The notes beneath the pieces were generated by a model. It saw nothing but the letters and a program-made list of their open reading frames with translations, searched no databases and was not told the DNA's origin. From Ruania zhangjianzhongii (GTDB lineage Bacteria; Actinomycetota; Actinomycetes; Actinomycetales; Beutenbergiaceae): a stretch of 64,000 nucleotides of DNA. Within the stretch, counting starts at the first letter, position 1. Each line of letters starts with the position of its first letter. Made by a program: the position numbers and the translations under genes. Shown here in pieces: positions 33,171 to 60,999 of the stretch. The stretch is taken from the NCBI RefSeq assembly GCF_008000995.1, contig NZ_CP042828.1:4268882-4332881 (forward strand). The letters run 5' to 3'.

Positions 33171-34811
33171 TCAGCTGCGGCGCCGCCGCCGAACAAGCAC
33201 CACTGCACCAGCAATCAGCCCGGCGCCGACCAGTCCGCCGGCCACCACGGCACCCGCGCCCAACCCACCGGAGCCGGCCCCACCACCTGCCGCACCACCA
33301 CCGGCGACCTCGACCAGCGAGCAGTCATCGCCGTTCACCCACCGGTCGCCGCCCTCGAAGCTGGTGGCGATGTACACCTCGAGGTTCTCCGCATCGCCGG
33401 AGTCCACAGTGCCAGTGAGCTGCTGCCACCCGTCCAGATCGGTGAACTCCACGGCCAGCTCGCCCCCGGAGCCGGAGGGCGGGCGAGCGCCGAGCTCCCC
33501 GGGGCCGCTCGCTCCCCCGGTCCGCAACCAGCAGGTCAGCCGGTACTCGGTGTCCGGGCGCACGGCCACGGTCTGCGCCACCTCCGCCGATCCCTGAGTG
33601 TCCCGGAGCCAGAACTGGTGCGCGCCGAGCTTGGCCTGGTCGATCGCCACATCGATACCGCCGGTTCCGGTCAGCTGCCAGGGGCCCTGCCCCAGCTCGG
33701 TGGATCGTTCGAAGCTGGGATCGGCGAGCAGGTTCGGCCGGATGAGCCTGCCGTCGGCGTCGTACTCGGCGTGCATCAGCGTCACGTTGTACCCACCCCA
33801 CACGGTCATCGCCAGGTAGAGCTCGCCGCTGGCGGACCAGGGGTGGACGTAGCCGCCGTAGAGGCCGGGATAGTCGGCCGAGCTGGCCAGCACCTGAGGC
33901 TCGGTCCAGGGCCCGGTCGGGGTGGTGGCGGTGCGTAGCACGAGGTCAATGTCCTCGTTCAGGTAGACCATCAGCCAGAGTCCGGTCTCGGCGTCCCGGT
34001 GCACGGAGAGCTCGGCCACGCTCGGCCCGAGGAGCGGCTCCAGGTCCGCCAGATCAGCGGACCAGCCATCACCGGTGTAGTACTCGTACGCGCCCTGGTC
34101 GCCCACGGCATCGGTGGCCACCCGGGCCAGGTGCGCGGGGCCGAACCTCCCGTTCGGGGTGCCGAACACGTACAGCGAGTCGCCGTCGCGGGCGAAGGCG
34201 TGCATCTGAAACGGGTGGCTGCCCTCGGCGTCGTTCTCCCACCGGGGCATCCCGTCGCTGCTCCAGGTCTGCCCGCCGTCGTCGGAGTAGTGCAGCTGAG
34301 CGAAGTTCGTCCACCACTGCCCCGGATCGCCCCACTCCCGCACGGACATCGCGGACAGGTACTGCCGCCCATCGATCGCGATTCCCGCGGTCGGGATGAC
34401 GGTGTGCTCCTCGCCCGGGATCTTCGCCGAGCCGACGATCTCACCGGCGTGGCCGGGTGCGTCCTCGAGCGCCCAGTCGAAGGACATCCCATCGGACAGC
34501 TCGGCGTCGGTGGAGCGCAGCAGCACGTTGGAGCGCCAGTCCTGGCCACCGCCACCATCGCCGGACCAGTCACCGAAGGTGTCGCCGAACGCGGTGAGCA
34601 CACCACCGTCGCCGTCGTCCCACATGATGCCCAGGTCGGTGCCCTCGATCTGCCACTGCGCGGCAGTGTCGGTCACGGCGCCGGTACCGGTCATCTCCTC
34701 CACCAGCACCGCACTCGATCCGGACTCCGAGGCGGAGGCCCCTCCGGCGGCGGCCAGGCTCATCGCGACCACTCCTCCCATGATCAGTGTGGCCGGTCGG
34801 GTCCTGCTCAC
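33171..34811 (-). CDS. Surface-anchored DUF4185 protein, likely GH183 endo-D-arabinanase
   Basis: Protein of 546 residues: signal peptide (about 1-30, ending in GASASES), a DUF4185 domain (about 40-320), a carbohydrate-binding-type beta domain (about 350-495, DPSFERSTELGQGPWQLTG), a Gly/Ala linker, one membrane helix and a final RRRRRS stop-transfer tail. DUF4185 contains the endo-D-arabinanases of CAZy family GH183, which cut arabinan of mycobacterial arabinogalactan and lipoarabinomannan. The conserved acidic region is seen in TDLGIMWDDGDGG and AFGDTFGDW. The GTG start overlaps the GH116 stop as GTGA; a longer in-frame version lies inside the GH116 gene and lacks a signal peptide. The exact substrate is inferred from family and context. 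Confidence 0.8.
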   Translation of the reverse strand: MSRTRPATLIMGGVVAMSLAAAGGASASESGSSAVLVEEMTGTGAVTDTAAQWQIEGTDLGIMWDDGDGGVLTAFGDTFGDWSGDGGGGQDWRSNVLLRSTDAELSDGMSFDWALEDAPGHAGEIVGSAKIPGEEHTVIPTAGIAIDGRQYLSAMSVREWGDPGQWWTNFAQLHYSDDGGQTWSSDGMPRWENDAEGSHPFQMHAFARDGDSLYVFGTPNGRFGPAHLARVATDAVGDQGAYEYYTGDGWSADLADLEPLLGPSVAELSVHRDAETGLWLMVYLNEDIDLVLRTATTPTGPWTEPQVLASSADYPGLYGGYVHPWSASGELYLAMTVWGGYNVTLMHAEYDADGRLIRPNLLADPSFERSTELGQGPWQLTGTGGIDVAIDQAKLGAHQFWLRDTQGSAEVAQTVAVRPDTEYRLTCWLRTGGASGPGELGARPPSGSGGELAVEFTDLDGWQQLTGTVDSGDAENLEVYIATSFEGGDRWVNGDDCSLVEVAGGGAAGGGAGSGGLGAGAVVAGGLVGAGLIAGAVVLVRRRRRS

Positions 34812-37387
34812 CGGACCGCTCCCGGAACTCTCACCGTCTCCCCCGGGCCGATCCGGAGGTCGACGGCGGAGCTCGGGTGGCCGTCCACGCTCAGCTGGTC
34901 GATGGCGAGCTCTCCGTACCTGCCGGTCAGGCTCAGGCCGTCGGCGCTGGCCTCGGCGGTGCCCCAGCCGGTATGGGTGAGCACCGGGAACGCGCCGCCG
35001 GCCGGGGGCCGGCGCAGCGCCAGCGCTGCGGTGGTGGCATCCCAGCTGTGCTCGGTCAGCGCTTCCAGCACGCTCCAGCCGGCGAGGGCGCGCACGTAGT
35101 GGTCGCCGCACTCCACCTGGTTGTAGGGGTTGCGCCGGCGGCCGTCGTAGCGGGACCAGAGACCGTCGAGGATCGCGTGCCCCTCCTCCGCCAGCCCTTC
35201 GGCCAGGCAGTGCGCGGCCACCTGGTTCTCGGTGCCGGTCCACACCTCGTCGCAGTACCGGGTGGGGATCTCGGGGCGGCCGCCGTCCGGCCAGGTGCAC
35301 ATCAGCAGCCCGGTCTCACGGCCGTCGGCGAACACCCGGTAGCCATTGTCGAAGTCGGTGAAATCGGTGCGCAGGTTGTGCCGGACCACGGCCCGCAGCG
35401 CGGTGCGCACATGCTCGGCGGGCAGCAGGTAGCCGAGGCCGAGCTGGTGCGCCCACCACTGCCCGATCAGCTGGTCGGACAGGCAGCCGCGGCCCCACTG
35501 GAACTGTTCCGGGTCGCCATCCTCGAGCACCTGGACATAGAAGTCGCCGGTGAACAGCTGCTCGTCGTAGCGCCGGGACCCGGCCTCGAAGCGCTCCCGC
35601 CAGCCGGCAGCAGCCTCCTGCTCGCCGAGCAGCAGAGCCATCTCCTCCGCGGCGCGCAGCGCGGCCAGCCAGAGGGTGCCCATGAACGAGTTCACCCCGG
35701 CCAGGTCGATGTCGTGGGTGGAGGGCTGGATGCCGTGCAGCACCCCGGTCTGCTCCGGGTCCCACCGCTCGGCCACGTAGCCGAGCAGCCGCTGCGGCTG
35801 GGGCCAGTACCGGGCCAGCCAGTCCTGCCCGGCGCCGGTACGTACCTCCCGGTAGGTCTTCAGCACGGTGCCGAGCATCCCGTCCAGGGCCGGTTCCCCC
35901 GGTCCGCCGATCTCCCGGTCCCACAGCTGCGGGGTGTGCAGCGGGAGCAGCAGCCGGTGCGGGATGAAGCCGGCCGGTGCCTGCAGCACGTCGAGCTCGA
36001 GCTCGCGCATGTCCCGCTCCAGCTCGGGGAACAGCTTGGCCACCCCTTGGGCGTAGTTGAACACGTGGGTGCAGTTCAGCGGGCAGGAACCGCCCACGTC
36101 CCCGGACCACATCCGGGTGGAGGCTCCGTGCACCCCCTCGAAACCATAGAAGTGACCGTCCGCGGTGCGGAAGAACGTCGGGCTGCGCACGATCGCCGCC
36201 TGCGCGGCCAGATGTTCCACCGCGCCCGCGCGCAGAGCCCCGGTACTGAGGACGTCGGTCCAGTCCCGGGAGAGCTGCTCCAGCTCGTCCCACTCGGTCT
36301 GCACCCGTTCGGCCACGGCCAGAGCGTCGGGATACCGGGTGCTGTAATGGTTGCCGAGCCAGGACCGGCTCGGCCCCCACTCCGGGCGGATACCGCCGAA
36401 CTGGGTGAAGTTCACATACCGGTTCGGGAAGTGCCAGGCCAAGGCGAACCGTACGGTCGTGGTCTCGCCGGGGGCCAGGGAGAACTGGCTGACCAGCCCG
36501 CCGTTCCAGGTGGACCCTGCTGGGCTGGGCCCGGCCTGGACCCAGGTGCCGGTGGGTTGCGGATCGGCCACCTCACCCGGCAGGTGCGTCCAGTCGTCGG
36601 GGCCGAACGGTTGCCGGGAGCCGAGGAAGTCGAGCAGCTGCCGCGGGCTGGTCCAGGCCGGGAGTGCACTGGCGGGCGCGCCGCTGGTGCTGAGCACCAT
36701 CTGCCCGGCACCGGGGTGCAGCTCGGGCAGCGTGTGGTTCTCCAGCACCAGGGACGTCCAGCCGCCGGCCCGGTGGATCCGGTTGGTGTTGCCGCCGTAC
36801 CCGGGGTGACCCACACCATCGGGTGGCACGACCCCGTCACCACCGACCGCGTTCTGCAGCCCGGCCCCGAACCAGCCGTGCACGTGTATGCTGTCGGTGT
36901 TCGTGACCGTGAAGGTGAACAGCGCCGCCGGCAGCGAGCTGCGGTCCACATCGAGCGGCACCAACGGAGTGAACGCCTCGAGCGAGATCTGCACCGGCAG
37001 GGTGTCGTCGTGGTACTCCACCCGACCGAACGGATAGGTGCCGGAGAACGTGGTGGAGGAAACGCCGTCGGCCTGGTGCAGCAGCTCGCGCTGCCAAGCC
37101 GGCACCTCATCATCGGTGACCAGCGGTGTGCTCGTGCTGCCCGCCGGCGCCGGTGGAGCCTGCAGCACGCGGACGGCATCGAACGGTGGCTCCCACTGGG
37201 AGACGCGGACGGCGAAGAACGAGCCAGGCAGCTCGCCGCGGTGGTTGCCGACGTTCTGCAGCTGCCACTGCCGCAGACCTCCGTCCGCCGTCAAGGCCAG
37301 ATTGCCGGTGCCGATCCCGCCGAGCGGTAGCGCCACGTGCCGCCCCTCGGTGTGCGGGATCCGCCGTGCCTGGTATCCGTGGTTCAT
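34808..37387 (-). CDS. GH116 glycoside hydrolase, candidate exo-beta-D-arabinofuranosidase
   Basis: Protein of 859 residues with the two-domain GH116 layout: an N-terminal beta-sandwich (about 10-340) and an (alpha/alpha)6 barrel (about 370-830). Family-typical segments are NCTHVFNYAQG (near residue 440) and IQPSTHDIDLAG (near 555), the latter matching the region that carries the acid/base aspartate. GH116 includes bile-acid/glucosylceramide beta-glucosidases and also an exo-beta-D-arabinofuranosidase acting on mycobacterial arabinan. No signal peptide is visible, so it probably acts on imported oligosaccharides. It follows the importer genes by 19 bases and overlaps the DUF4185 gene, which favours the arabinan role over a glucosidase. 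Confidence 0.85.
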   Translation of the reverse strand: MNHGYQARRIPHTEGRHVALPLGGIGTGNLALTADGGLRQWQLQNVGNHRGELPGSFFAVRVSQWEPPFDAVRVLQAPPAPAGSTSTPLVTDDEVPAWQRELLHQADGVSSTTFSGTYPFGRVEYHDDTLPVQISLEAFTPLVPLDVDRSSLPAALFTFTVTNTDSIHVHGWFGAGLQNAVGGDGVVPPDGVGHPGYGGNTNRIHRAGGWTSLVLENHTLPELHPGAGQMVLSTSGAPASALPAWTSPRQLLDFLGSRQPFGPDDWTHLPGEVADPQPTGTWVQAGPSPAGSTWNGGLVSQFSLAPGETTTVRFALAWHFPNRYVNFTQFGGIRPEWGPSRSWLGNHYSTRYPDALAVAERVQTEWDELEQLSRDWTDVLSTGALRAGAVEHLAAQAAIVRSPTFFRTADGHFYGFEGVHGASTRMWSGDVGGSCPLNCTHVFNYAQGVAKLFPELERDMRELELDVLQAPAGFIPHRLLLPLHTPQLWDREIGGPGEPALDGMLGTVLKTYREVRTGAGQDWLARYWPQPQRLLGYVAERWDPEQTGVLHGIQPSTHDIDLAGVNSFMGTLWLAALRAAEEMALLLGEQEAAAGWRERFEAGSRRYDEQLFTGDFYVQVLEDGDPEQFQWGRGCLSDQLIGQWWAHQLGLGYLLPAEHVRTALRAVVRHNLRTDFTDFDNGYRVFADGRETGLLMCTWPDGGRPEIPTRYCDEVWTGTENQVAAHCLAEGLAEEGHAILDGLWSRYDGRRRNPYNQVECGDHYVRALAGWSVLEALTEHSWDATTAALALRRPPAGGAFPVLTHTGWGTAEASADGLSLTGRYGELAIDQLSVDGHPSSAVDLRIGPGETVRVPGAVR

Positions 37388-37406: not shown

Positions 37407-38300
37407 TCATTTCAGGCCGGCCATCTTGATGTTGGCGATGATCTGCCGCTGGAACACCAGGAACACCAGCACCACCGGGGCAGCTGCGAGCGCGGAGCCG
37501 GCCATCAGCATGCCCAGCTCGGAGGAGCGCTCGGAGCGGAACGCCGCCAGGTACTGCTGGATCTGGTAGAGCTCCGGGGAGGTGATCGTCATGATCGGCC
37601 ACACGTAGGAGTTCCAGAAGGTCAGGAACGAGGTCACCCCGACCACCACGAACGGGGCCTTGGACATCGGCAAGAAGATCCGCAGATAGACCCCCCAGCG
37701 GCCGCAGCCGTCGATCAGTGCGGCCTCCTCCAGGCTCCGCGGCACGTTCAGGTAGAACTGCCGGATGAAGAACACGTGGATGGCGGCAGCGGCCCCGGGC
37801 AGCACCAGCACGGCGAGGGTGTCCAGCATCTGCAGCTTGGTGACCATGATGAACGAGGTGAGCAGGATGGTCATCCCGGGGATGAACATCGTGGTGATGA
37901 CCACCACCCACAGCGTGCGTTTGAGCTGGAACTCCAACCGGGCGAAGGCGTAGGCCGCCATCGAGTTCACCGTCAGGGACAGCAGCGTGAACAGCACCGC
38001 GCCCAGTGCGGTGACCCCCAGAGAGCGCAGGAACACCGGATCGGCAAGGATCTGGGTGTAGTTCTCGGTGTTCCAGACCTCGGGGAAGAACTGGAACGGA
38101 GTCCGCACTACCTCGGTCTTGGTCTTGAACCCGGCGATCACCATCCACGCCAACGGGAACAGCGCGAGCACCACGAAGAACATCCCGGCGATCGCCTTCA
38201 GCGTGCCGGCCAGCCAGCGGCGGGGCCGGCGCCGGGGGGTGTCGGTGTCCGGTGCCAGACCCCCCGAGGTCGGCGGGGTGAGGGTGGCGTTCTGGGTCAT
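37407..38300 (-). CDS. Sugar ABC transporter permease, MalG type
   Basis: Inner-membrane permease of a CUT1-type carbohydrate importer (297 residues, six hydrophobic segments after a polar N-terminus). The ATPase-contact (EAA) loop is EEAALIDGCGRWGVYLRIFL. The ATG at 38300 shares a base with the stop of the other permease gene (TGATG). No ATPase gene accompanies the set; actinobacteria often use one shared MsiK-type ATPase. Confidence 0.93.
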   Translation of the reverse strand: MTQNATLTPPTSGGLAPDTDTPRRRPRRWLAGTLKAIAGMFFVVLALFPLAWMVIAGFKTKTEVVRTPFQFFPEVWNTENYTQILADPVFLRSLGVTALGAVLFTLLSLTVNSMAAYAFARLEFQLKRTLWVVVITTMFIPGMTILLTSFIMVTKLQMLDTLAVLVLPGAAAAIHVFFIRQFYLNVPRSLEEAALIDGCGRWGVYLRIFLPMSKAPFVVVGVTSFLTFWNSYVWPIMTITSPELYQIQQYLAAFRSERSSELGMLMAGSALAAAPVVLVFLVFQRQIIANIKMAGLK

Positions 38301-39220
38301 CAGTCCACCAACTTCTCGGAGTTGAGCACACGGAAGATCAGCGCCGAGACGGATCCGAGCACCACGAACAGCAGCAGCGCGGCGGCGATCGAGTAGCCGA
38401 CGTACGGGTCACCGCGGAAGTGGTTGAAGATGAACAGGTTCGGCAGCTCGGTGGAGGACATCGGACCGCCGCTGGTCATGATCAGCGGCAGCTCGAACTG
38501 CTGGATCGAGGCGACGAACCCGGTGATGATCAGGTACAACAGCACGTTCTTCAGCTGCGGGATGGTGATGTAGATCGTCTTCTGCCACCAGTTCGCACCC
38601 TCGACGTCCGCGGATTCGTAGAAGCTCGCCGGGATGTCGAGCATGCCGGCGATCATGATCAGGCAGGTGAGGCCCATCCCGAGCCAGACGGCGGGGGCTG
38701 CGATCGCCGCCAGCGCCAGCTTCGGATCGCCCAACCAGGCCTGCCCGGGCAGGTCGAGCGAGCCGAGCACGGCGTTCAGGATGCCGCCGGAGTAGTCGTA
38801 GATGATGGTGAAGATCACCGAAGTGATCACCCCGGAGATGATCGTCGGGATGTAGATGCTCACCTTGAGCACATCGGCGAACCTGCGGTTCACCGCGGTG
38901 GCCAGCGAGGCGAACAGGAACGCACCGATCAGCTGGATCGGCAGCGTCATCGCCACGAACTGCAGCCCGAGGAGGATGGAGGCGCGGAACTTCGGGTCGG
39001 TGAGCACATCGGTGAAGTTCTTCACCCCGACGAACTCCGACTCCTCGTAGAAGCTCCAGTCGTAGAAGCTCAGCACCGTCGCCTGGATGGCCGGGTAGAT
39101 CACGAAGATGCCGAGCATGATGACGATCGGGGCGATCATCACGTACGCCATCACGTTGTCCGGGTAGCGCTTCTTGTTCGAGTTCGCCACCTGGTAGGTG
39201 GGCGTTCGTCCTCTGGCCAT
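38300..39220 (-). CDS. Sugar ABC transporter permease, MalF type
   Basis: Second permease of the importer (306 residues, six hydrophobic segments). The coupling loop is seen in ESADVEGANWWQKTIYITIP. It lies between the binding-protein gene (71-bp gap) and the MalG-type gene in the common order binding protein, F, G. Confidence 0.93.
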   Translation of the reverse strand: MARGRTPTYQVANSNKKRYPDNVMAYVMIAPIVIMLGIFVIYPAIQATVLSFYDWSFYEESEFVGVKNFTDVLTDPKFRASILLGLQFVAMTLPIQLIGAFLFASLATAVNRRFADVLKVSIYIPTIISGVITSVIFTIIYDYSGGILNAVLGSLDLPGQAWLGDPKLALAAIAAPAVWLGMGLTCLIMIAGMLDIPASFYESADVEGANWWQKTIYITIPQLKNVLLYLIITGFVASIQQFELPLIMTSGGPMSSTELPNLFIFNHFRGDPYVGYSIAAALLLFVVLGSVSALIFRVLNSEKLVD

Positions 39221-39291
39221 CCCTCACCTCTCCTTGGTCCCGGGCCGGGGCAGCGGTGCCGCGCCCCCCGGCCCGGGGTCAGTACCGGTGG

Positions 39292-40662
39292 TCAGTCACC
39301 GAGCTCTTCACGGTTGGTGGGCAGGTCCTCGCGTTCGATGATCTGCTCGATGGTGGCGTTCGCTTCGGCGAGGGCATCGGCCGGAGCCACATCGCCCATC
39401 ATCGACTGCTGGATCGCCAGCCCCATCGCCACGTTGACGTCCCACGGGTAGAGCGGTTCGCCGATCGTGTACGGCACCACGTCCTCGGTGATCACCTGGG
39501 CCCACGGCGCCTCGGCCGCGCCCGGGTCGGCGTTCACCGCCTCGGCCACATCCTCCCGGGCGGGTGCCTTGGTGAACTGCGTGTTCACGAAGAACGGCAG
39601 CAGCACGTCGGTGTCCCCGGCGAGGGCGAACTCGATGAAGGCAGCAGTGGCCTCGGCGTTCTCGGTGTTCGCATCGATGACCCACTTGAAGTTACCGACG
39701 GTGGTCAGCGTCTCGGTCTGGTTGCCGTCGCTGGTGACGGTGGGCGCGACCCCGGTGCTCTCCACCACCTCCGGGTAGTCGGCGACCAGCTCGCTCATCC
39801 CCCAGGAGCCCTGGGTGATCATCGCGACCTCGCCCTCACCGAACGGCGCGGCGGAGTTCCCGGCGGCCAGCGACTGGCGCGGGATGTAGCCCTCGTCGTA
39901 CAGCGTGGTGTAGTGCTCGATCAGCTCTTCGTAGGCCGGGTCGGTGGCCTCCGCGGTGGTCCAGTCCTCGGAGATCGGCAGGTGCCCGGCCACGTGCATC
40001 TGCTCGGCCACCGTGCTCCAGGCCAACGTGTCCTGGTCGCTGAACGTCTCGATGCAGAACTGGCCGTCGGAGAGCACCGGCTGGATCTGCTCACACGCCT
40101 CGTAGAGCTCGTCCCAGGAGGTCGGTGGGGTCTCTGGGTCGAGCCCGGCTTCGGCGAAGATGTCCTTGTTCCAGTAGAGCACCCGTTGCGGTTCCAGCAG
40201 CAGCGGGTAGCCGTACCAGGTGCCGTCCACCTGGGAGATCTCCGCAGCGGAGTCGGTGACCTGCTCGAATGCCTCCGCGGGCATCAGGTCGTCCAAGGCC
40301 AGGTAGCTGCCCAGCCGGACGCCGTCGTTGAGACGGCCCGGCACCGGGTACACGTCCGGTGCGGTACCGGCGGCCTGCGCGGCGGTCATCTTCTCGTCCC
40401 AGGCGTCCCCGGGGACCACCGTGGAGTTGACGAAGATCTCGTCCTGGGAGGCGTTGAAGTCCTCCACTACCTGCTCGTACCACTCGTTCTCGGGGGTGGT
40501 GAATGTGTGGTGCCAGAACTCCACCACCTCACGGTCGCCGGCTTCGGCGTCCTCGTCTGCGGACTGCCCCGGGGTGCCACTGCCGCAGGCGGCGAGCAGG
40601 GCCACGGAGGCCAGGAGTGCGGTGCCGGCGCCCAGTCGACGCCGTGTGGTTGTGGTCATCAT
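39292..40662 (-). CDS. Sugar ABC transporter substrate-binding lipoprotein
   Basis: Extracytoplasmic solute-binding lipoprotein of 456 residues (family 1 type). The lipobox is LLAACGSG at about residue 26, preceded by RRR and a hydrophobic segment. Two start codons (40662, 40659) are equivalent. Likely ligand is an arabino-oligosaccharide or D-arabinose-containing sugar released by the neighbouring enzymes; this is inference from context. Confidence 0.93.
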   Translation of the reverse strand: MMTTTTRRRLGAGTALLASVALLAACGSGTPGQSADEDAEAGDREVVEFWHHTFTTPENEWYEQVVEDFNASQDEIFVNSTVVPGDAWDEKMTAAQAAGTAPDVYPVPGRLNDGVRLGSYLALDDLMPAEAFEQVTDSAAEISQVDGTWYGYPLLLEPQRVLYWNKDIFAEAGLDPETPPTSWDELYEACEQIQPVLSDGQFCIETFSDQDTLAWSTVAEQMHVAGHLPISEDWTTAEATDPAYEELIEHYTTLYDEGYIPRQSLAAGNSAAPFGEGEVAMITQGSWGMSELVADYPEVVESTGVAPTVTSDGNQTETLTTVGNFKWVIDANTENAEATAAFIEFALAGDTDVLLPFFVNTQFTKAPAREDVAEAVNADPGAAEAPWAQVITEDVVPYTIGEPLYPWDVNVAMGLAIQQSMMGDVAPADALAEANATIEQIIEREDLPTNREELGD

Positions 40663-40726: not shown

Positions 40727-41818
40727 TCAGCCCAGCCGTGGCAGGCGTTGTTCGACCGGGGGCAGCACCAGGCCGGTTGCCGGGTGCTCCTGGTACCAGT
40801 ACGCAGTCGAGGACAGGTCGTCGCTGCGCTTGTTCGCGTGGCCGTGCTCGATGCTCACCCGGATCGAGGTGGTGAAGGGGACGGGGTCCTCCACGTGAAA
40901 GCGGTAGGTGGAGATCTGCCCGGACCAGTTCTCCCCGCCCGGGAGGGTGAGCCCGTGATAGGGCGCGGAGAACGGCTGGGTGGGACACCAGGCCGTGTTG
41001 AAGTAGTCCTCCGTCCCGGTACCGTGCAACGTCGGTGGCCACGCCTCGCCGTCGACGAAGATCATGTCGTCCCCTTCGCCGTACCAGTTCCACTGCTCGG
41101 TATGGCGCAGGTTGGTCACGTTCAGCACGCAGCCCACGTAGTGGCCGCGGCCGGTGGTCGACAGAATGGTGTAGTTGCCGTCGCCATCGAGGTTGCTGCC
41201 CTCGAACAGGTACTCGGAGTTGCTCTGCCCCTGCGGCGGCACCCCATCGGTAGGGCACTGCCGGTTCCAGCTGGCGTGGAACCGGCCGAGGCCGTCCTCG
41301 AGCTCGTCGAAAGCGTCGTAGTCGATGTAGAAGTAGAACCACAGCACCTCCGAGGAGCACTCGCTGGTGAGCTCGAACCGGGCGCCGTCGGCAAACGGCA
41401 TGTGGAAGAAGGAGTTGAACGACTTCCCGTCCTCCGGGCTCATCTGCAGCGGCAGCGAGGCGAAGTTCACCGTGCGGGCGTGCCCGACGCCGAAGAAGTC
41501 GCCGAGCGGCACGAGCACGCTCGGTGTGTCGGCACCGTCCCAGTAGATCCGCAGCACCAGCTTGCGCAGGTAGTCCCGGTCGGCCGTCTCCGGCGTATCG
41601 GGTTCCCGCGGCGCCACGGTCATCCAGAGGTGGTTCACCGATCCGGCGCCGGCGATGTCCGCGAGCGTGACGGTCTGGCCCGGGTGGATGGTGACCCGGT
41701 CCTCGTTGCCACCGCTGCGGTCCCAGCTGGACTCCCGCCGCCGGCGGTGCGAGCGCAGCCGCGGGAGATCTCGCAGGCTGCTGCCGAAGTCGCCGTAGCG
41801 GCTGACCGTCATCGTCAT
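40727..41818 (-). CDS. GH172 (DUF2961) glycoside hydrolase, copy 1
   Basis: Protein of 363 residues of the DUF2961 family, now CAZy GH172. Characterised members include exo-alpha-D-arabinofuranosidases acting on mycobacterial arabinan and difructose-dianhydride enzymes; they form trimers. The family signature GTGTEDYF lies at about residues 265-272, and the sandwich segments LVLRIYWDG and VPLGDFFGVG are clear. No signal peptide is present. An AGGAAGGA ribosome-binding site precedes the ATG. First gene of an operon with importer, GH116 and DUF4185 genes; tandem LacI-type sites lie 130 bp upstream. Confidence 0.88.
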   Translation of the reverse strand: MTMTVSRYGDFGSSLRDLPRLRSHRRRRESSWDRSGGNEDRVTIHPGQTVTLADIAGAGSVNHLWMTVAPREPDTPETADRDYLRKLVLRIYWDGADTPSVLVPLGDFFGVGHARTVNFASLPLQMSPEDGKSFNSFFHMPFADGARFELTSECSSEVLWFYFYIDYDAFDELEDGLGRFHASWNRQCPTDGVPPQGQSNSEYLFEGSNLDGDGNYTILSTTGRGHYVGCVLNVTNLRHTEQWNWYGEGDDMIFVDGEAWPPTLHGTGTEDYFNTAWCPTQPFSAPYHGLTLPGGENWSGQISTYRFHVEDPVPFTTSIRVSIEHGHANKRSDDLSSTAYWYQEHPATGLVLPPVEQRLPRLG

Positions 41819-41946: not shown

Positions 41947-41972
41947 GAAATCGTTTACAAGTAATCGATTTC
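41947..41972. promoter_or_regulatory. Tandem LacI-type operators before GH172 copy 1
   Basis: Two 12-bp sites lie 14 bp apart: GAAATCGTTTAC (41947-41958) and GTAATCGATTTC (41961-41972). Each matches 10-11 of 12 positions of the palindrome GTAATCGATTAC found before the lacI operon. A minus-strand TACCAT (41982-41977) could be the -10 box, which would put the sites at the start of transcription. Otherwise 41819-42169 contains only this and a 7-bp tandem repeat. Confidence 0.65.
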
Positions 41973-42169: not shown

Positions 42170-43225
42170 TCAGCAGATCTCGAGCTGATCCGCCGTCGGC
42201 GCCTCGGGTCGAGCAGCGGTGGGATGGTCGAGGTAGAAGAAGGCGGTCGAGGCGATGTCGTCCTGAAGCGGCAGGTACCGGCCGCCCTGGCGCCAGCCGA
42301 GCGCCTGCACGTCCACCCGCAGATCGGTCTCGAAGTGGATCGGGTCGAGCACGTGCCAGCGGTACATGCCGAAGCGCTGCTGGGAGTCGTACAACCCATC
42401 GGGGCGGATCACCTGGTGCATCCCGAGGTAGGGCGTGGTGAAGGCGGTGTACCCCTGGCCCGGGACGTCGAAGTTCCACGCCCCGCCGAAGTAGTCCTCG
42501 GTCCCGGTACCGCAGATCGTCGGGTGGTCCAGATCGCCGTCGAGGTAGTGCTTGACCTCCCCTTCCCCCCACCAGCCCCTGCTGTTCACACCCCAGGCCA
42601 GGTAGGTACCGACGTACTGCCCACGCCCGCGCACCCCGTCCAGCAGGACGTGCGTGCTGCCGGCGGCCAACGGGTTGCTCCGCCGCCACTGAGCGTGCAA
42701 CCGGCCAGCACCGGAGACCTCGGCGCCGACCTCGTAACTGAGCTGGTAGTAGACGATCACCTCCTGATCGCTGAGATTCTCCACGGTCAGATGAGCGCCG
42801 TCAGCGAAGGGCATCGGCCAGTAGGAGTTGAACCCGCCGTGCGGGTTCACCGCGACCATCGAGGAGGAGAGCTGGGCGAAGGAGCCCCAGCCCTGGCCGA
42901 AGAAGTCTCCGACCGGCACCTCGATCGCCGGTTCGGCCGCGCCGTCCCAGTACGCGCGCAGGACGAGGTGGCGCCAGTGGTCGGTATGGGTGGTCAGCCA
43001 GAGGTGGGTGATCCGGCCCGGACCGTCGATCCGGGCCAGGTCGAAGGTCTCCCCCGGTCCGATCGGTACCGACGGCGAGACCTTCCAGCCCGGACCGAGG
43101 TCACGGGCAGCGGCCGCACCGGTGCCGTCGGTCGCCCGGGCGCCGCCGCCTTTGGCGCCGGTGAAGTTCTCCGGGCTGATCGATCGGGTCTGGACGTGCC
43201 GCAGCTCGGCGATGTCGCGGTACAC
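42170..43225 (-). CDS. GH172 (DUF2961) glycoside hydrolase, copy 2
   Basis: Protein of 351 residues with GTGTEDYFGGAW at about residues 236-247 and VPVGDFFGQGWG near 110. It starts with MYRDIAELRHVQTRSISPEN; the RSIS(P/A)EN segment is shared with copy 3 (RSISAEN), to which it is much closer than to copy 1. No signal peptide. It lies 57 bp after the lacI stop in the same direction, so it probably belongs to the operator-controlled unit that begins at 46083. Likely exo-acting on D-arabinofuranosyl linkages; specificity is not readable. Confidence 0.87.
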   Translation of the reverse strand: MYRDIAELRHVQTRSISPENFTGAKGGGARATDGTGAAAARDLGPGWKVSPSVPIGPGETFDLARIDGPGRITHLWLTTHTDHWRHLVLRAYWDGAAEPAIEVPVGDFFGQGWGSFAQLSSSMVAVNPHGGFNSYWPMPFADGAHLTVENLSDQEVIVYYQLSYEVGAEVSGAGRLHAQWRRSNPLAAGSTHVLLDGVRGRGQYVGTYLAWGVNSRGWWGEGEVKHYLDGDLDHPTICGTGTEDYFGGAWNFDVPGQGYTAFTTPYLGMHQVIRPDGLYDSQQRFGMYRWHVLDPIHFETDLRVDVQALGWRQGGRYLPLQDDIASTAFFYLDHPTAARPEAPTADQLEIC

Positions 43226-43282: not shown

Positions 43283-44299
43283 TCAGTTGTTCGGGGCGGT
43301 GCTGCCGCGCACCTCGAGCCGGGGTGGCAGCAGGACGTGCACCGGCTCGATCTCTGGGTCAGCGGCGCGGGCGACGATCCGTTCTGCGGCACGGATACCC
43401 ATCTCGTCGACCGGCTGAGCGATCAGCGTCACGGCGGGGGTAACCATCCGGGTCCAGCGATCGTCGTCGAATCCGACCAGGGAGATCTCGTCCGGGATGC
43501 GCAGCCCCGAGGTCTGCACCGCCCGGTAGGCCCCGGTGGTCAGCGGTCCGTTCAGCGCGAAGATGGCGTCCGGGCGCGGTCCGGAGGTCAGCGCCGCGGC
43601 AACGATCCCCTCGGCGTCGGCCGCACGCAGGTCGGTCCGCATCATCCGGCTCTGATCGAAGGCGATGCCCGCGTCGGCGAAGGCGTCTCGCACCCCTTGC
43701 AGCCGGTCCTCGGTGGTACTCACCCCGGACGGCCCGGCCAGGCAGAGCACATCCCGGTGCCCCAGCTCGAGCAGGTGCTCGGCGGCGAGCCGGCCGGCGC
43801 GCACGTTGTCCAGCAGGACGGAGTCCCCGGTGAAGTCGTGCACCCGCCGGTCCACCACCACCGTGGGCACCTGGGCGCGGACCAGCCGGGCGAGATCGGA
43901 CTCCTCCTCCGAGGTCACCGAGACCACCACCCCGACCATCCGCTGGGCGATCGCGGCATCGAGGTAGGCGTTCTCCCGCTCGAGCTGTTCGTCGGTGTTG
44001 CACAGCATCACCGAGTACCCGGCACCGACCGCGACCCGCTCCACGGCCGCCACCAGCGAGGTGAAGAACGGGTTCTGCAGGTCGGAGACGATCACCGCCC
44101 ACATATCCGACCGTTGCCGGCGCAGCGCCCGCCCGTTCGGGTTGCGGATGTAGCGCGTGGCCAGGGCCGCCTGTCGCACGCGTTCGGCCAGCTCCGGGCT
44201 CACGCTGGTGGACCCGTTCAGCACGCGGGACACGGTCGCCGTGGAGACGCCGGCCGCCTCGGCCACATCGGTGATCCGCGCGGTGCGGTGTTCGTTCAT
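43283..44299 (-). CDS. LacI-family repressor, proposed master regulator of the arabinan locus
   Basis: Regulator of 338 residues: LacI helix-turn-helix at 8-30 (RITDVAEAAGVSTATVSRVL), hinge, and a periplasmic-binding-protein-like sugar-sensing domain (from about residue 65; GIVAAALTSG, DEISLVGFDDDRW). The ATG at 44299 overlaps the stop of the preceding gene as ATGA; an in-frame extension upstream lies inside that gene. The palindrome GTAATCGATTAC, of LacI-operator type, stands before its operon and before two other operons in the window. The inducer is probably a sugar from the pathway. Confidence 0.93.
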   Translation of the reverse strand: MNEHRTARITDVAEAAGVSTATVSRVLNGSTSVSPELAERVRQAALATRYIRNPNGRALRRQRSDMWAVIVSDLQNPFFTSLVAAVERVAVGAGYSVMLCNTDEQLERENAYLDAAIAQRMVGVVVSVTSEEESDLARLVRAQVPTVVVDRRVHDFTGDSVLLDNVRAGRLAAEHLLELGHRDVLCLAGPSGVSTTEDRLQGVRDAFADAGIAFDQSRMMRTDLRAADAEGIVAAALTSGPRPDAIFALNGPLTTGAYRAVQTSGLRIPDEISLVGFDDDRWTRMVTPAVTLIAQPVDEMGIRAAERIVARAADPEIEPVHVLLPPRLEVRGSTAPNN

Positions 44300-46083
44300 T
44301 CGGTGTCTCCGTCGTCGTGGACCGCCAGCTCGCTGATCGAGGTGTAGCAGCCCCAGCCGCCCGGTGGGCCGGATAGCCGGATGCCGGTACTGCACACCGG
44401 GCCGAAGGTGAAGGTGAAGGTCACCGTGCCGGTCGCGGTCCAGTCCGGCCGATACGGCGGGGTGACGGTGACGCCGTCCAGGCTCCGCCAGCTGCCATCG
44501 TGATCGCGGACCTGCACCTGCGGCGCCCGGGCGAACCATCCGGATCCGTAGTCGTGCGGGCCGGAGGTGAACACCAGCCGGGTGCACTGCACCGGGTACG
44601 GCCAGGTGTAGCCCCAGTAGTCGTCGTCCTTGTGCAGCCCGTTCCAGGAGTCCTCGGCCCGGTCGGTTCGAGCGTCGTTGAGCACCTCCAGGTGGCCGCT
44701 CCGGGCGGCCCGCGCAATGGCGGCGACGCCGGGCAGCCGGGCCAGGTTCGCACCCGACGGCTGCGGCGGCGCGTCGGTACCGGGCGCTGGCATCGGCTCC
44801 AGCCGGAGGGGGCGCAGCGAGAAGTGGTAGGAGGAGCCGGAGTAGGTGCCAGCGGTGACGAACCAGTTCGACTGCAGCCACATCCGCCGCCCGTCGGCAC
44901 TGATGAACTTGCTCGGCACCGTGGTGGCGTAGCCGCCGTGGTGGGCCTCGGCCGAGCGCGGCCCGGTCCAGGGGAAGGGACCGAAGTCATGGTCGAGGAA
45001 GCGCCGCCACGGGCCCCACGGCGTCGGTGCTTCATAGAACTGGAAGGTGTGCTCGGTCCAGGACGTGTACAGGAACCGGCGGAGTCCTGGGTTGTAGACC
45101 ACCCCGCCCTGGGCGAGGAGCGTACCGGGCACCGGGGCCGGCGCCATCGGCGCAGCAGGCGCTCTGCCCACCCGGCGGGTATCGGTCAGGACCGGCACCG
45201 CCTCAGCCAGCTGCGAGCTCCACCGGGGCACGCCGTGGGGGTACTCTCCGGCGGCGTCGATTCCGGCGCAGAACTCCCAGGCCGCGCGGTCACCGATGTG
45301 GCTGCGGTGCACCCGGGCCAGGTAGAGGTCGGTGGGATCGGGGACCACACCGGAGTAGGAGGTGCGCCAGTTCTGGTCCAGTCCGTAGGCGTAGACGTAG
45401 TCGGCCGGATCGGTGGCCGAGGCGGGTAGGAGCGCACGCAGCACGCTCGCACGGGCGTTGCTCTGGCCGAAGTCCGCGAACATCACCGTGGTGAACCGTT
45501 CGGTGAACATCGGCTCGGCGGGCCGGGACCAGGTGCGGCCGTAGTCGGTGGAGCTGACGATCCCCGCGGCCGGGGCGATGTTGAAGGTGTCTGGACCGCT
45601 ACCGCAGCGCAGGTCCTGCACGGCGAGGTAGAGCTCGTCGCGACCATCGTCGTTACCGTCGACGGCGATCATCCCGGTGGGTTTGCAGTTGTACCGTTCC
45701 GGATCGGTCCAGACTCCGGCCACCTCCCGGCCGGCGGCGAGCCGGATCCCGACCAGACCCTGCTCCGGTGTGCCGTCGATCCGGTTGACCACGATGTCCG
45801 ACCACTGCCCGAGCTCAGGCTGGAAGCCGAGGCCGTCTCCACACGCGCTGTACAGCCCGCCGTCGTCGGCCCAGGTGCTCGGCCACAGGTCCCCGTCGCT
45901 GGCAGTGCTGACGGTGGCGCCCGGGGCGAGGGTGGCCACAGCGAAGAAGTTCGACTCCGGCGGGCCCTGCTCCCGTTCCCCGCTCGATCGCCCACCCGCT
46001 GGCGCGCGGGCATCGCCGACCGGCTCCGCACCCGACTCCTGGCCCAGTCCGGGCACACCGCCGAACTGCTCCGCCGGGTCCAT
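44296..46083 (-). CDS. DUF4185-like protein with C-terminal discoidin-like domain
   Basis: Protein of 595 residues without signal peptide or membrane segment. The first ~420 residues resemble DUF4185/five-bladed-propeller glycosidases: STASDGDLWPSTWADDGGLY, SSTDYGRTWSRPAEPMF and HGGYATTVPSKFISADGRRM. The last ~140 residues resemble an F5/8 type C (carbohydrate-binding) domain (VQVRDHDGSWRSLDGVTVT). It is the first gene of the lacI operon, 16 bp after the operator GTAATCGATTAC. A second endo-acting arabinanase or a related hydrolase is plausible, but the lack of an export signal is at odds with attack on a polymer outside the cell. Confidence 0.65.
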   Translation of the reverse strand: MDPAEQFGGVPGLGQESGAEPVGDARAPAGGRSSGEREQGPPESNFFAVATLAPGATVSTASDGDLWPSTWADDGGLYSACGDGLGFQPELGQWSDIVVNRIDGTPEQGLVGIRLAAGREVAGVWTDPERYNCKPTGMIAVDGNDDGRDELYLAVQDLRCGSGPDTFNIAPAAGIVSSTDYGRTWSRPAEPMFTERFTTVMFADFGQSNARASVLRALLPASATDPADYVYAYGLDQNWRTSYSGVVPDPTDLYLARVHRSHIGDRAAWEFCAGIDAAGEYPHGVPRWSSQLAEAVPVLTDTRRVGRAPAAPMAPAPVPGTLLAQGGVVYNPGLRRFLYTSWTEHTFQFYEAPTPWGPWRRFLDHDFGPFPWTGPRSAEAHHGGYATTVPSKFISADGRRMWLQSNWFVTAGTYSGSSYHFSLRPLRLEPMPAPGTDAPPQPSGANLARLPGVAAIARAARSGHLEVLNDARTDRAEDSWNGLHKDDDYWGYTWPYPVQCTRLVFTSGPHDYGSGWFARAPQVQVRDHDGSWRSLDGVTVTPPYRPDWTATGTVTFTFTFGPVCSTGIRLSGPPGGWGCYTSISELAVHDDGDTE

Positions 46084-46098
46084 CGCACACCTTCGTCC

Positions 46099-46110
46099 GT
46101 AATCGATTAC
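46099..46110. promoter_or_regulatory. Perfect LacI-type operator GTAATCGATTAC
   Basis: A fully symmetrical 12-bp sequence with the central CG usual for LacI-family sites. On the minus strand a TACACT box (46120-46115) just upstream would start transcription inside the operator, and the ATG of the DUF4185-like gene follows at 46083. Best-conserved of the three site clusters. Confidence 0.75.
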
Positions 46111-46204
46111 CGGCAGTGTAACAAGGGTTCACACTCACCTCGGGCGTCCGGCGGCGCAGTGCCGCCGGACGCCCGAGGTGCCCGGTTCCCGGTTCCTGCT
46201 GCTG

Positions 46205-49200
46205 TCAGCGGGTGCGCAGCTGGAGGTTGTCCACGGCGAGGGTCCCGCTGTCGGCCCGGAATCCGATCGCCGGGTGGTAGTCGGCACGAACCTCGGGGTC
46301 GGTGATGTCGTCGGTACCGTTCACCGGGGCGGTGTGGATCCGGTCCCACTGCCCGTCGTGCCACCGGTAGGCGGTCAGCCAGCGGCCGGAGAGGGTGACC
46401 GCGAGCCGGTCGCCCACGCGCAGCTGGGCCGGGACGTCACCCCAGCCACCGAAGCTCTGGCCATCCACCACGATGTCGAATCCGAGCCTGGAGCCGTTCC
46501 GGTTGTACCAGGCGACCGCTCGGGTGTCCGCGTCAGCGGCGAAGCCGAGGAACAGCGAGTTCTCCGCGCCCTCGGTGTCAGCGAACTCCTCGATGTCGGC
46601 CACCACGGTCATCTCGCCCTCGCCCGGCAGCGTCTGCGGCGCGGTGAGCATGGAGTAGTAGTTCTCCCCGCTGACCTGGAGGCGGCCGTCGACCACCTCG
46701 GGGGCCAGCGCCGGCTCTGCGTCGCTCATCGTGAGCAGCTCGTACTCACCGGTGCTGTCCTGGGTGAACCGGTCCTGGAACTCGGTGCGGCTGAACTCCT
46801 CCGGTACCAGTTCGTCACCGGGGTACTGGATGGTGCCGACGATGAAGTCCCGGCCCCATTCGGAGATGGTGCCCCAGCGGGTGCCGGTCTGCAGGTCGCC
46901 GTAGCTGGTGGTGGCGGCATAGATCGGCCGGTCTTCGGCGTCGAGCGTCAGTGCCGGGGTACCCGTGGTGCTCTCCGCGAGGTGGGTCCACTGCCAGGGC
47001 GCATCGGCACTGTCCGGGTCCGGTTGCACAGCGGCGAGGAAGCCGCGGTTGTTCTGCCCCATGATCAGGGGTGCGCCATCGCTCTGCACGGTGATCGCCG
47101 GATCGTCGATGAAGTCGTACCAGGCGACCTCCGCCGACCACTCCCCGTCGCTGCGATGGGCGTACCAGACCTCATTCCCGCTGTGCAGGTAGGCGGCGTG
47201 GATCCCGCCGCTGGCATCCACGGTCGCAGTCGGGGTGCCGTGGGCGGAGTCAGCCACCTGGGTCCAGTCGTCGTCGCTGCTGAGCGAGCGGGACATGATC
47301 TGCTCTCCGCTGCGCACTACGGCCACCGGGTCCTCCCCGGCGGTGACCAGCGCGGGCTGGGCGTCGAGCGTGAGGTCCTCATCCTCAGCCTGCCACCCGT
47401 CGGGGCCGCTGTAGGCATGCACGCTGCCGTCTGCGGTGGCTGCGAGCAGGTGTACCTGCCCGTCGGCCACCGTGGCCGCTGGGTCGCCGGTGACGCCGTC
47501 GGCGACCGGTGTGGGCCGCCCGGTATCGGTGCTCACCACGAGCTGGTCACCGGAGACGGCGGCCCAGCCGACGTCCGTGCCGTCGACGAACGGCACCGGG
47601 GTGCCGGTGATCGAGTGGCCGCGGCGCTCGGTGCGGTACTCGGCCGACCCTGCTTCGTTCTGCCAGGCGTGCACCACCTGCCCGGAGCGGGTCCGCGCCA
47701 CAGCGTGTACCCGCCCCTCGGCGTCGACCACGACCTCCGGATCGGTGACCACGGTGCGGGCGATCGGCTCACTGGACCACGGGCCTGATCCTGGGTCGTG
47801 CTGTTGGCCGGCCCAGAGCTGGCCGTCGGCGCCGCGGGCGAACCAGGCGATCGACCCGTCCGGATTCTGCGCCAGGGCCGGGTCCCCGGTCAGGTCATGG
47901 CCGGAGCCGGTGAAGCCGGGCGCGGTGCCGAGCTCGTCGACCAGTGCGGAGAACTCCGTCCAGCTCAGCTGCGCCCCCTCGCCCCAGGTGTGCTGGGTCA
48001 GGGCGGCCATGTCCGGGCGCAGGTTGTTCAGCACCTCGGCGTCGCTCTCCATCGGGGTGCCGATCCAGGCGAGCCAGACGGCGATCCGGGCACCGGAGAC
48101 GTGGTCGGGATCGACCGGCTGGTCGCCGGTGAAGGTGTTCACGTCGAACTGCTCGTAGAGGTCGCGCGGGTCCAAGTTGCGCCGGGACATGTCGTAGTAG
48201 AGCAGGTCGACGTCGGTGTTGATCAGCTGGTTGCCACGGTCGGCGATCTGCTGCGGGGAGAGCAGTCCCGGCAGGGCGTCGTGGGTGATCCAGTACTCCA
48301 CGGCGATATCCTCGTCCAGGGTGACGACGTCCGAGGCGCGGATCATGTCGTTCCACACCCGCATGGTCTTGCCGTGCGCCTGGACGAGCTCGTTGGCGCG
48401 GTTCTGGAAGTCCGCGAACAGGTCGGCGAACGTGGCGTCCGGGCCGAACTTCTGCTGGGCGTACTCGGTCAGCTGCGGGTGGTTCTCCCCGGTGCCGGGC
48501 CAGCCCGGGAACTCGTCCGAGCCGAGGTGCCAGACGTCGGAGGAGAACCGGTCGATGTTCTCCTCGATCAGGCCGAGCGCCCACTCCACCGCCTCTTCGT
48601 TGGTCAGATCGAGCGCCTGGGAGTCCAGGGTGCCGTCCTGGTTCTCCAGCTGGTACTCCGGGTGCGAGGGCAGCACGGTGGCCATGTGACCGGGCATGTT
48701 CAGCTGCGGCACCAGCCGGACGTAGTAACGCTGAGCGAGCGCGTCGACCTGCTCCATCTGTTCCGGAGTCATCCCGACACCGTCGATGTACAGGTTGGTG
48801 TCGTTGAGCTTGTAGTAGCTCATCTGCTGGAAGAAGGACTCCCACCAGGTGAGCGAGAAGTGCCGCGGGGTGTTGTCCACCAGCACGCTGCGCACCTCCT
48901 TGGTGGGCCAGTCCTGGGCGGTGCCGGCCGGGATCACCTCGGCCCGGGTGAGTAGCTGCAGCACGGTCCGGGTGCCGTTGAACACCCCGTGCGCCGTGCT
49001 GCCGGTGATGGTCAGCGTGCCGTCGACGTCGAGCTGGTAGCCCTCCTCGCCGAGATCCTCTCCGCCGAGGCCGAGCTGGATGTCGCCGTCACGGGCCTGA
49101 CCGGTGTTCACCGGCACGCGGGTGCCGGTGAGATCCTCCAGGTCCGCGGCGACGGTCTCGGCGACGGTGGTGAGCTCTTCGCCGGCGTCGCCGGGCAGCA

Positions 49201-49393
49201 CGATGTGCCCGCCGAGGCTGAAGTCTTCACCGTCGGGGTCGCCGGTCCACTCCTTCAGGGTCGGGACGACCTGCATATCGGAGACGTCGCCGTCGGCGGC
49301 CGGGGGTGCTGCAGTGGCCGGCACGCTGGTGACGGCCAGCCCGGCCAGCAGCGCAGGGGCTGCCAGCAGGGTGGTCAGTCTTCTGGTGTGCAT
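46205..49393 (-). CDS. Secreted GH20 family enzyme with propeller and C-terminal beta domain
   Basis: Protein of 1062 residues: signal peptide (1-29, LLAAPALLAGLAVTSVPATA), a GH20b-type domain (about 40-145), a GH20 catalytic barrel (about 150-450) and ~400 residues of repeated beta strands that look like a propeller (motifs such as GTPTATVDASGGIHAAYLHS), then a concanavalin-like domain (about 880-1062). GH20 enzymes are beta-N-acetylhexosaminidases; the catalytic Asp-Glu pair is seen in WHLGSDEFPGW (about 293-294). The ATG at 49393 has AGGAGGAGAA upstream. It could remove amino sugars from a glycan processed by this locus; the substrate is unknown. Confidence 0.82.
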   Translation of the reverse strand: MHTRRLTTLLAAPALLAGLAVTSVPATAAPPAADGDVSDMQVVPTLKEWTGDPDGEDFSLGGHIVLPGDAGEELTTVAETVAADLEDLTGTRVPVNTGQARDGDIQLGLGGEDLGEEGYQLDVDGTLTITGSTAHGVFNGTRTVLQLLTRAEVIPAGTAQDWPTKEVRSVLVDNTPRHFSLTWWESFFQQMSYYKLNDTNLYIDGVGMTPEQMEQVDALAQRYYVRLVPQLNMPGHMATVLPSHPEYQLENQDGTLDSQALDLTNEEAVEWALGLIEENIDRFSSDVWHLGSDEFPGWPGTGENHPQLTEYAQQKFGPDATFADLFADFQNRANELVQAHGKTMRVWNDMIRASDVVTLDEDIAVEYWITHDALPGLLSPQQIADRGNQLINTDVDLLYYDMSRRNLDPRDLYEQFDVNTFTGDQPVDPDHVSGARIAVWLAWIGTPMESDAEVLNNLRPDMAALTQHTWGEGAQLSWTEFSALVDELGTAPGFTGSGHDLTGDPALAQNPDGSIAWFARGADGQLWAGQQHDPGSGPWSSEPIARTVVTDPEVVVDAEGRVHAVARTRSGQVVHAWQNEAGSAEYRTERRGHSITGTPVPFVDGTDVGWAAVSGDQLVVSTDTGRPTPVADGVTGDPAATVADGQVHLLAATADGSVHAYSGPDGWQAEDEDLTLDAQPALVTAGEDPVAVVRSGEQIMSRSLSSDDDWTQVADSAHGTPTATVDASGGIHAAYLHSGNEVWYAHRSDGEWSAEVAWYDFIDDPAITVQSDGAPLIMGQNNRGFLAAVQPDPDSADAPWQWTHLAESTTGTPALTLDAEDRPIYAATTSYGDLQTGTRWGTISEWGRDFIVGTIQYPGDELVPEEFSRTEFQDRFTQDSTGEYELLTMSDAEPALAPEVVDGRLQVSGENYYSMLTAPQTLPGEGEMTVVADIEEFADTEGAENSLFLGFAADADTRAVAWYNRNGSRLGFDIVVDGQSFGGWGDVPAQLRVGDRLAVTLSGRWLTAYRWHDGQWDRIHTAPVNGTDDITDPEVRADYHPAIGFRADSGTLAVDNLQLRTR

Positions 49394-49438
49394 CGTTCTT
49401 CTCCTCCTCGAGACGTGCAGTGGCGCGTGCTGCGCCAC

Positions 49439-50542: not shown

Positions 50543-50578
50543 CGGGGGCGTCCTCCTTGGCAGCGGGTCGGGCGGTGC

Positions 50579-54350: not shown

Positions 54351-54352
54351 GC

Positions 54353-59355: not shown

Positions 59356-60999
59356 TCAGCCGGGCAGCTGCACCTGCCCGCACAGGTGCACGGTGAGGCC
59401 GAGCCGGTCGAACATCGCCGCCTTGGCCACCAGCGCTTGGTCTGCCGTGCCCGCATCCGGGGTGTAGACCACCTGGATGTGGTTGGCCTTGTGCCGGCCC
59501 ATGAACTGGTCCCGGCTCACCCCGTGCAGCACCGCGTGCATCACCGGCCACTCCGGGTTGGTCATCTCCTTGCGCCGGGTGCTCTCGGACTCGGGGAGCG
59601 CTACGGCGCTGCCCCGTCCGAGATCCACGTGCAGTCCGCCGTCGGCGATGTACACGCGGGACCAGACGATCTCCCCGGGCCGGGACACACCGTTCAGCGT
59701 GGCCCCGCCGGCGGGGAAGAACACCGGCCCCTGGCGCCACCCCTCGGCGCCGGCGTAGCCGCCTTCCAGGTGCGAGGCGGGCACCGACCCGGAGATCTCC
59801 ATGGTCCACACGTAGTCGCCGCCGAACTCCTCGCCCCAGCGCACATCGTGCAGGGTGGTGGCGGGGTCCAGACCCATCGCCCGCCACACCCGGTGGGTGA
59901 CCAGCGCATCGACGGCCACCCCCTCGTCCACCTCGTTGAAGTGCGGTAGTGCGCGCCCTTCCCAGAGCACGCGGGAACCGTCCCGGCTGGTCACCGGCGG
60001 GCGGGAGTCGTTGTTCAGCAGACCCTCCACGAGATCGGAGGCCGGAGACAGGTTCTTCAGGCCCTGCTGGTACTGGATACCCACCGCGTCCAGGCCGAAG
60101 TCGTCGCTCATCCGCAGCACGGCCACGTACATCTTGTACTGCCAGCGCAGCTGGTTCTCGGTGAGCTCCGTGGCCTCGTCGGTGCCGAGCCGGAAGGTCA
60201 TCCCGGCCTCGCGCAGCCAGTCCCCGACCGCATCCGCCTCCTCGTCGGAGACCTGCTGCATCTGCGCCCACAGCTCGCTCTGGGAGAGCCGCTCCTTGTA
60301 CACACCGATCGGGTTCAGCAGCTCATCGTCGATGATCGCGTTGTACATCCCCATGCAGCCCTCGTCGAAGACGCCGATAATCGCCTTCGCGTGCAGCAGT
60401 TCGGCGGCCAGAGCTCGGCCGAGCGCCGTCTCGTCCGTCTCCGGCAGCGCCGGGAGCGGGCGCACGTGGGAGTCGTCGTGGTTCACCCGGCCGGTCGTGA
60501 GCCAGCCGGCGAGCTGGTCGGTGAACCAGTCGTCGGTGCCGTCCACGGTCCAGAGGGTGGAGTATGGCTTGCCCATCTTGGTCAGTCCGCCGTTCAGCCC
60601 GAGGAGACCGACCAGGCCTGGCCACTGGGCCACGAAGTTGGCGACGGTGAGGATCGGGCCCTGATGGCTGCGCAGGCCGGGCAGGACGTGGCTGGAGTAC
60701 TGCCAGTTGCCGATCGCCACGACCAGCGGTACCTCCCGCGGGATGCCGGCGAACACTTCGAGGCCCTTGCGCTGGCTGTTGATGAATCCGTGCCCGGTCT
60801 CTGGGTCCACGCCGTGGGCGCGCACCACCCGGTGGCCCTGTGCCTCGATGGCGGCGGTAATCATCTGCTCCAGCGCTTCCTGCACCGGCCAGCTGGCCAC
60901 GTTCGCCGACTCGCGCAGGTCGCCGCTGGAGACCAGGTAGACCGTGCCGGGCTCCGCCGGGGCCGGCGTGGAGATGGTCGGCATCGCATAGGTGGTCAT
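59356..60999 (-). CDS. Fucose isomerase-like protein, proposed D-arabinose isomerase
   Basis: Protein of 547 residues resembling the L-fucose isomerase-related group (COG2407-like). Segments typical of this group are FDEGCMGMYNAIIDDELLNP (near residue 212), GIQYQQGLKNLSPASDL (near 305) and GRHKANHIQVVYTP near the C-terminus. It is clearly distant from the E. coli FucI sequence as I remember it. L-fucose isomerases commonly also convert D-arabinose to D-ribulose, because the sugars share configuration at the relevant carbons. A LacI-type site identical in 11 of 12 positions to the one before the lacI operon lies 90 bp upstream, which ties this gene to the arabinan enzymes. AGAGGA precedes the ATG. 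No ribulokinase gene is in the window. Confidence 0.7.
   Translation of the reverse strand: MTTYAMPTISTPAPAEPGTVYLVSSGDLRESANVASWPVQEALEQMITAAIEAQGHRVVRAHGVDPETGHGFINSQRKGLEVFAGIPREVPLVVAIGNWQYSSHVLPGLRSHQGPILTVANFVAQWPGLVGLLGLNGGLTKMGKPYSTLWTVDGTDDWFTDQLAGWLTTGRVNHDDSHVRPLPALPETDETALGRALAAELLHAKAIIGVFDEGCMGMYNAIIDDELLNPIGVYKERLSQSELWAQMQQVSDEEADAVGDWLREAGMTFRLGTDEATELTENQLRWQYKMYVAVLRMSDDFGLDAVGIQYQQGLKNLSPASDLVEGLLNNDSRPPVTSRDGSRVLWEGRALPHFNEVDEGVAVDALVTHRVWRAMGLDPATTLHDVRWGEEFGGDYVWTMEISGSVPASHLEGGYAGAEGWRQGPVFFPAGGATLNGVSRPGEIVWSRVYIADGGLHVDLGRGSAVALPESESTRRKEMTNPEWPVMHAVLHGVSRDQFMGRHKANHIQVVYTPDAGTADQALVAKAAMFDRLGLTVHLCGQVQLPG

Follow-up and report, generated by a model that had tools for sequence, protein, structure and literature searches.

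The window, a stretch of 64,000 nucleotides of Ruania zhangjianzhongii DNA that was analysed as a whole, carries a gene for a DUF4185-like protein that appears to lack an export signal. A preliminary description of the sequence offered three explanations: the protein acts on imported oligosaccharides, it leaves the cell by another route, or its function differs from that of the surface enzyme of the family. We asked where this protein is likely to act, and on what.

The leaderless protein and its operon

The gene lies where the preliminary description had put it, on the minus strand (Table 1). Its product falls just below the gathering cut-off of the Pfam DUF4185 profile (38.7 against 39.5 bits; 40 in the genome search, where it was counted with its frame neighbours), and 65 of 81 family members match the profile (E 0.01). 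The F5/8-like domain described at the C-terminus was recovered by structure prediction: folded alone, the last 152 residues gave a model of CBM32/F5/8 type (pLDDT 96.5) that matched CBM32 modules with a best Z of 17.0 over 140 aligned residues. Pfam F5_F8_type_C had no match in the 595-residue protein and matched 5 of its 81 relatives. The extreme N-terminus (46083-46040; orthologues L006-L011) carries the motif E[EQ]FxG[VI]PG[LV], and the disordered linker behind it varies strongly. This motif may serve as a docking peptide; the neighbouring GH172 has a similar string, ENFTGAKGG, close to its own start.

Table 1. Features of the DUF4185-like gene and its surroundings (positions within the window)
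Feature	Position	Strand	Basis or remark
DUF4185-like gene, leaderless, 595 aa	44296..46083	-	ORF and sequence
Disordered tail, residues 1-36, opening with E[EQ]FxG[VI]PG[LV], kept in close orthologues	45976..46083	-	pLDDT <50; orthologue N-termini
Five-bladed propeller, residues about 44-432, holding D65, D83, R240 and Q325	44788..45954	-	model and alignments
CBM32/F5/8-type beta-sandwich, residues 441-592	44308..44763	-	predicted fold
LacI-type operator GTAATCGATTAC	46099..46110	.	only perfect copy in genome; kept before gene in close orthologues
Extended -10-like element TTGTTACACT	46115..46124	-	read from sequence; three Ruania species share it as TTGNTACACT
Two imperfect operators before second GH172 operon	41947..41972	.	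position kept in Ruania and Occultella
lacI-family regulator, start overlapping stop of DUF4185-like gene	43283..44299	-	sequence
GH172 (DUF2961), leaderless	42170..43225	-	sequence
GH172 (DUF2961), leaderless	40727..41818	-	sequence
ABC sugar importer, binding protein and two permeases	37407..40662	-	M. arabinogalactanolyticum importer matches and synteny
GH116, leaderless	34808..37387	-	sequence
Canonical GH183 with signal peptide and C-terminal membrane anchor	33171..34811	-	listed ORF start 35300 too early
L-fucose/D-arabinose isomerase-like gene	59356..60999	-	weak Pfam match, 28.5 against 29.3 bits
Operator GCAATCGATTAC upstream of isomerase-like gene	61088-61099		operator search

Using a hydropathy heuristic to call signal peptides, we found neither a signal peptide nor a membrane helix in the DUF4185-like protein, in agreement with the preliminary description, nor any other hydrophobic segment. 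An in-frame stop lies 15 codons upstream of the ATG, and none of the codons between is ATG, GTG or TTG. Because a conserved promoter-like box and an operator also lie in this gap, with the same arrangement in orthologues, an upstream start or a frameshift concealing a leader was ruled out; no upstream start with a real signal peptide was found. The leader is missing across the whole clade to which the protein belongs, and in several cases the start overlaps or abuts the upstream gene. Cysteine content was dropped as a marker of cytoplasmic location since it does not distinguish leaderless from secreted members. The protein is presumably cytoplasmic.

As described, the gene is the first of the lacI operon, its stop overlapping the lacI ATG (ATGA, 44296-44299), and Ruania, Occultella and Pseudactinotalea suaedae share this gene order. 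The operator is perfect upstream of six close orthologues and has a single-base variant in one. Three Ruania species share the -10-like TACACT; the operator lies 4 nt downstream of it. Since both elements lie between the stop and the ATG, the transcription start is probably within the operator, some 25 nt upstream of the ATG. Allowing up to two mismatches, four operator matches occur in the window (0.5 expected): two precede the second GH172 operon, and the DUF4185-like gene and the isomerase-like gene are preceded by one each. LacI would be expected to bind these sites, and the operator in front of its own operon suggests the autoregulation that had been proposed. The L-fucose isomerase family is known to act on D-arabinose, and the match before the isomerase-like gene suggests that the LacI regulon reaches D-arabinose catabolism. 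A phmmer search of the isomerase-like protein against the PDB gave no match, so that its assignment depends on the weak Pfam match.

The window also encodes a canonical GH183 (370.9 bits; 429 bits to the endo-D-arabinanase EndoMA1), whose likely start is the GTG at 34811, overlapping the GH116 stop and yielding a signal peptide. A second same-strand group (46205-55846) comprises a signal-peptide GH20, a third GH172 (49439-50542), a DUF5107 and TPR protein and another ABC importer; its gene order is conserved in Ruania albidiflava (L027).

Fold and active site compared with GH183

Searches of solved structures with phmmer returned nothing of note, and a profile of 18 sequences matched only sialidase Asp-boxes; the kinship to GH183 was seen by profile-profile and fold comparison alone. 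Compared as profiles, the family and 18 GH183 sequences matched at 99.8% (E 1.7e-28). An AlphaFold2 model built from 81 aligned sequences (mean pLDDT 91.7, residues 1-36 disordered) had as its best structural match EndoMA1 (GH183, MIAR_33230; PDB 8ic1, Z 30.4, and 8hhv, Z 30.1; 283 residues, 20% identity), which Foldseek also placed first. The next entries, at Z 21.7 and below, were a Bacteroides protein, GH43 enzymes (about 19-20) and AraH2. The predicted fold is therefore GH183-like, as the preliminary description had supposed. AraH2 of M. tuberculosis (PDB 8an0, Z 19.8), an endo-D-arabinofuranase, shares the propeller fold but is more distant than EndoMA1. With GH43 arabinanases and xylosidases (Z up to about 20) the five-bladed propeller is shared as a structural relation only; the catalytic acid of GH43 differs (PMC10509167).

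In EndoMA1, D33 is the nucleophile, D51 the acid/base, and E243 positions R198; the variants D33N, D51N, E243A and E243Q are nearly inactive (PMC10509167). The D, D, R and E positions are invariant in all 18 GH183 sequences. The leaderless protein shares the five-bladed propeller, the locus type and the equivalents of nucleophile, acid/base and R198: D65, D83 and the sugar-binding R240 are each invariant in 81/81 aligned family sequences. The automatic alignment shifts D65 by one; this was corrected by motif and by the spacing of D65 and D83, which at 18 residues equals that of D33 and D51. At the position of E243, however, stands Q325, a glutamine in every one of the 81 sequences. The two proteins also differ in the signal peptide, which the leaderless protein lacks, in the subsite region, where nothing clearly corresponds to the EndoMA1 cleft aromatics W138 and Y293, and in the C-terminal domain, which is CBM32-like here and has been likened to CBM4-2 and CBM61 in EndoMA1. 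As E243 is essential in EndoMA1, the leaderless protein may use another chemistry or cleave another bond, and only an assay would justify classing it as a GH183 endo-D-arabinanase.

Distribution, phylogeny and gene company of the family

We scanned 84,980 species genomes and obtained 79 loci from the best 80 of 120 matches, in which Actinomycetota, Bacillota, Bacteroidota, Myxococcota, Acidobacteriota and others were represented. No characterised member of the family was found. Most members are secreted, as judged by hydropathy and by inspection for lipobox and twin-arginine signals, with labels reassigned by eye in some rows (e.g. L046, the long copy of L053, L063). In a tree built without the GH183 of D. 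gadei and mycobacteria, a 100/100 branch of about 6 changes per column, present in 100% of bootstrap trees, separates the family from GH183; by this tree it is a sister to GH183 and does not group within it. A further tree places 18 leaderless rows in one main clade (support 100/96) and requires, in all, four changes of the leaderless or secreted label.

Several members stand out individually. The R. zhangjianzhongii genome also holds a secreted paralogue (L021) and a further weak DUF4185 match of 35.1 bits (G000:C2:3404005-3404382; L004). The Pseudonocardiales members L037 and L073 have no clear leader, and their frames reach upstream of the propeller into an extension that may resemble a DUF397-like domain. 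In a Haloplasmataceae genome bin (L088:10001-14348), a lipoprotein copy comes immediately after a leaderless one, so that the inside/outside pair is found here independently.

The leaderless clade sits in D-arabinan loci that also encode LacI, an ABC importer, GH172, GH116 and a secreted GH183. In the 65 loci that extend over 15 kb or more, counted without regard to relatedness and representing few independent origins, GH183 was nearby in 12/16 leaderless against 6/49 other copies, GH116 in 11/16 against 4/49, and GH172 in 14/16 against 23/49. Members in Streptomyces, Kribbella and Paenibacillus mostly have no GH183 nearby. As many members lack GH183 or GH116 in their neighbourhood, some of them may have a substrate other than D-arabinan.

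In Microbacterium, a short secreted copy is followed by a leaderless full-length copy, either directly or with EndoMA1 between. Recent duplication was ruled out as the source of these tandem copies, which fall into separate supported clades. The family occurs in 17 of 34 Microbacterium genomes with EndoMA1, nine of which hold both a full-length and a short copy. Another member of the family is MIAR_33220 of Microbacterium arabinogalactanolyticum, a secreted lipoprotein of 366 aa (51 bits to DUF4185), which we identified by gene order and size in a genome with a 100% EndoMA1 match. It is about 47% identical to the leaderless protein in the propeller and sits in the same kind of locus, but has no C-terminal domain and belongs to a separate clade (100/100). 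MIAR_33220 was insoluble in E. coli and is uncharacterised, and its function was called 'elusive', as other Microbacterium loci seemed to have no homologue (PMC10509167). D-arabinose and mycobacterial wall extract induce the DUF4185 genes of this D-arabinan locus more than 10-fold (the passage on induction prints the tag of MIAR_33220 as MIAR_32220).

Proposed role and alternatives

Since the protein lacks an export signal and has an altered active site, it probably acts intracellularly, on fragments that have been imported. The published model of D-arabinan degradation comprises a secreted GH183, an importer and leaderless GH172 and GH116 enzymes; the exo-enzymes of M. arabinogalactanolyticum have no leader and are placed inside the cell (PMC10509167). 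The leaderless propeller fits into this model. The secreted, anchored GH183 would cut mycobacterial arabinogalactan and lipoarabinomannan outside the cell, and the ABC importer would take up D-arabino-oligosaccharides. The leaderless enzyme would then cleave alpha-D-arabinofuranosyl bonds in them by a retaining mechanism, in which D65 would be the nucleophile and D83 the acid/base, while GH172 (alpha) and GH116 (beta) would take off terminal residues and the fucose-isomerase-like enzyme would begin D-arabinose catabolism. LacI from the same operon would repress the genes through GTAATCGATTAC-type operators. We regard the kinship, the modelled fold, the absence of a leader and the locus as well supported, and infer the location, the substrate, the retaining chemistry, the order of these steps and the binding of LacI.

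Among the explanations offered by the preliminary description, action on imported oligosaccharides is thus the best supported: the GH172 and GH116 partners are leaderless, the importer and the isomerase-like gene share the locus or the operator, and leaderless copies are found chiefly alongside a secreted GH183. We think it somewhat probable that this glycoside hydrolase of a GH183-sister family is cytoplasmic and hydrolyses imported D-arabino-oligosaccharides; most likely it would be a D-arabinofuranosidase or short-chain arabinanase under LacI control. The carbohydrate-binding-type domain, unusual on a cytoplasmic enzyme, speaks against this reading. A different function was partly borne out by the sister-family position and by the invariant glutamine at an essential GH183 residue. 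This replacement affects the residue that supports the arginine of the -3/-2 subsites and, together with the long branch to GH183 and the members mostly without GH183 nearby, would suit a cytoplasmic furanosidase that serves the same locus without being an arabinanase, for example one that is exo-acting, cleaves a branch- or cap-specific bond or takes a D-fructofuranoside-like substrate. We consider this rather unlikely, as R240 is invariant and its EndoMA1 counterpart holds the sugars at -3 and -2, as leaderless copies cluster in D-arabinan loci, and as the regulon seems to include the isomerase-like gene.

Export without a classical signal, followed by action at the surface, would be in line with the secretion of most family members and with the CBM32-like domain. 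On sequence grounds, however, this route finds no support and is very improbable: the whole clade lacks a leader, with starts that overlap or abut upstream genes, the protein has no hydrophobic segment, and its GH172 and GH116 partners are leaderless too. We judge it similarly improbable that the protein is a weak or inactive propeller that persists to sense oligosaccharides or to act as a scaffold, for instance as an accessory to the translationally coupled LacI. The glutamine in place of the essential glutamate, the coupling to lacI and the conserved N-terminal motif on its variable linker would suit such a role, but lacI is not adjacent in many members, and the Asp pair and Arg invariant throughout the family point to catalysis.

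Returning to the hydrolase reading, we hold it to be about an even chance that this is an unrecognised GH183-sister family, spread over several phyla and often near GH172, in which an invariant glutamine stands in place of the essential GH183 glutamate and which in Actinomycetota lost its secretion signal at least once to give an intracellular D-arabino-oligosaccharide hydrolase. D-arabinan is one of the polymers that define the mycobacterial wall, and D-arabinan-degrading enzymes serve as tools in the study of lipoarabinomannan and arabinogalactan. MIAR_33220, a gene of the model D-arabinan locus that had been left unexplained, now lies within a defined, testable family, and its cytoplasmic candidates, the leaderless Ruania protein included, extend the published pathway by a possible step inside the cell.
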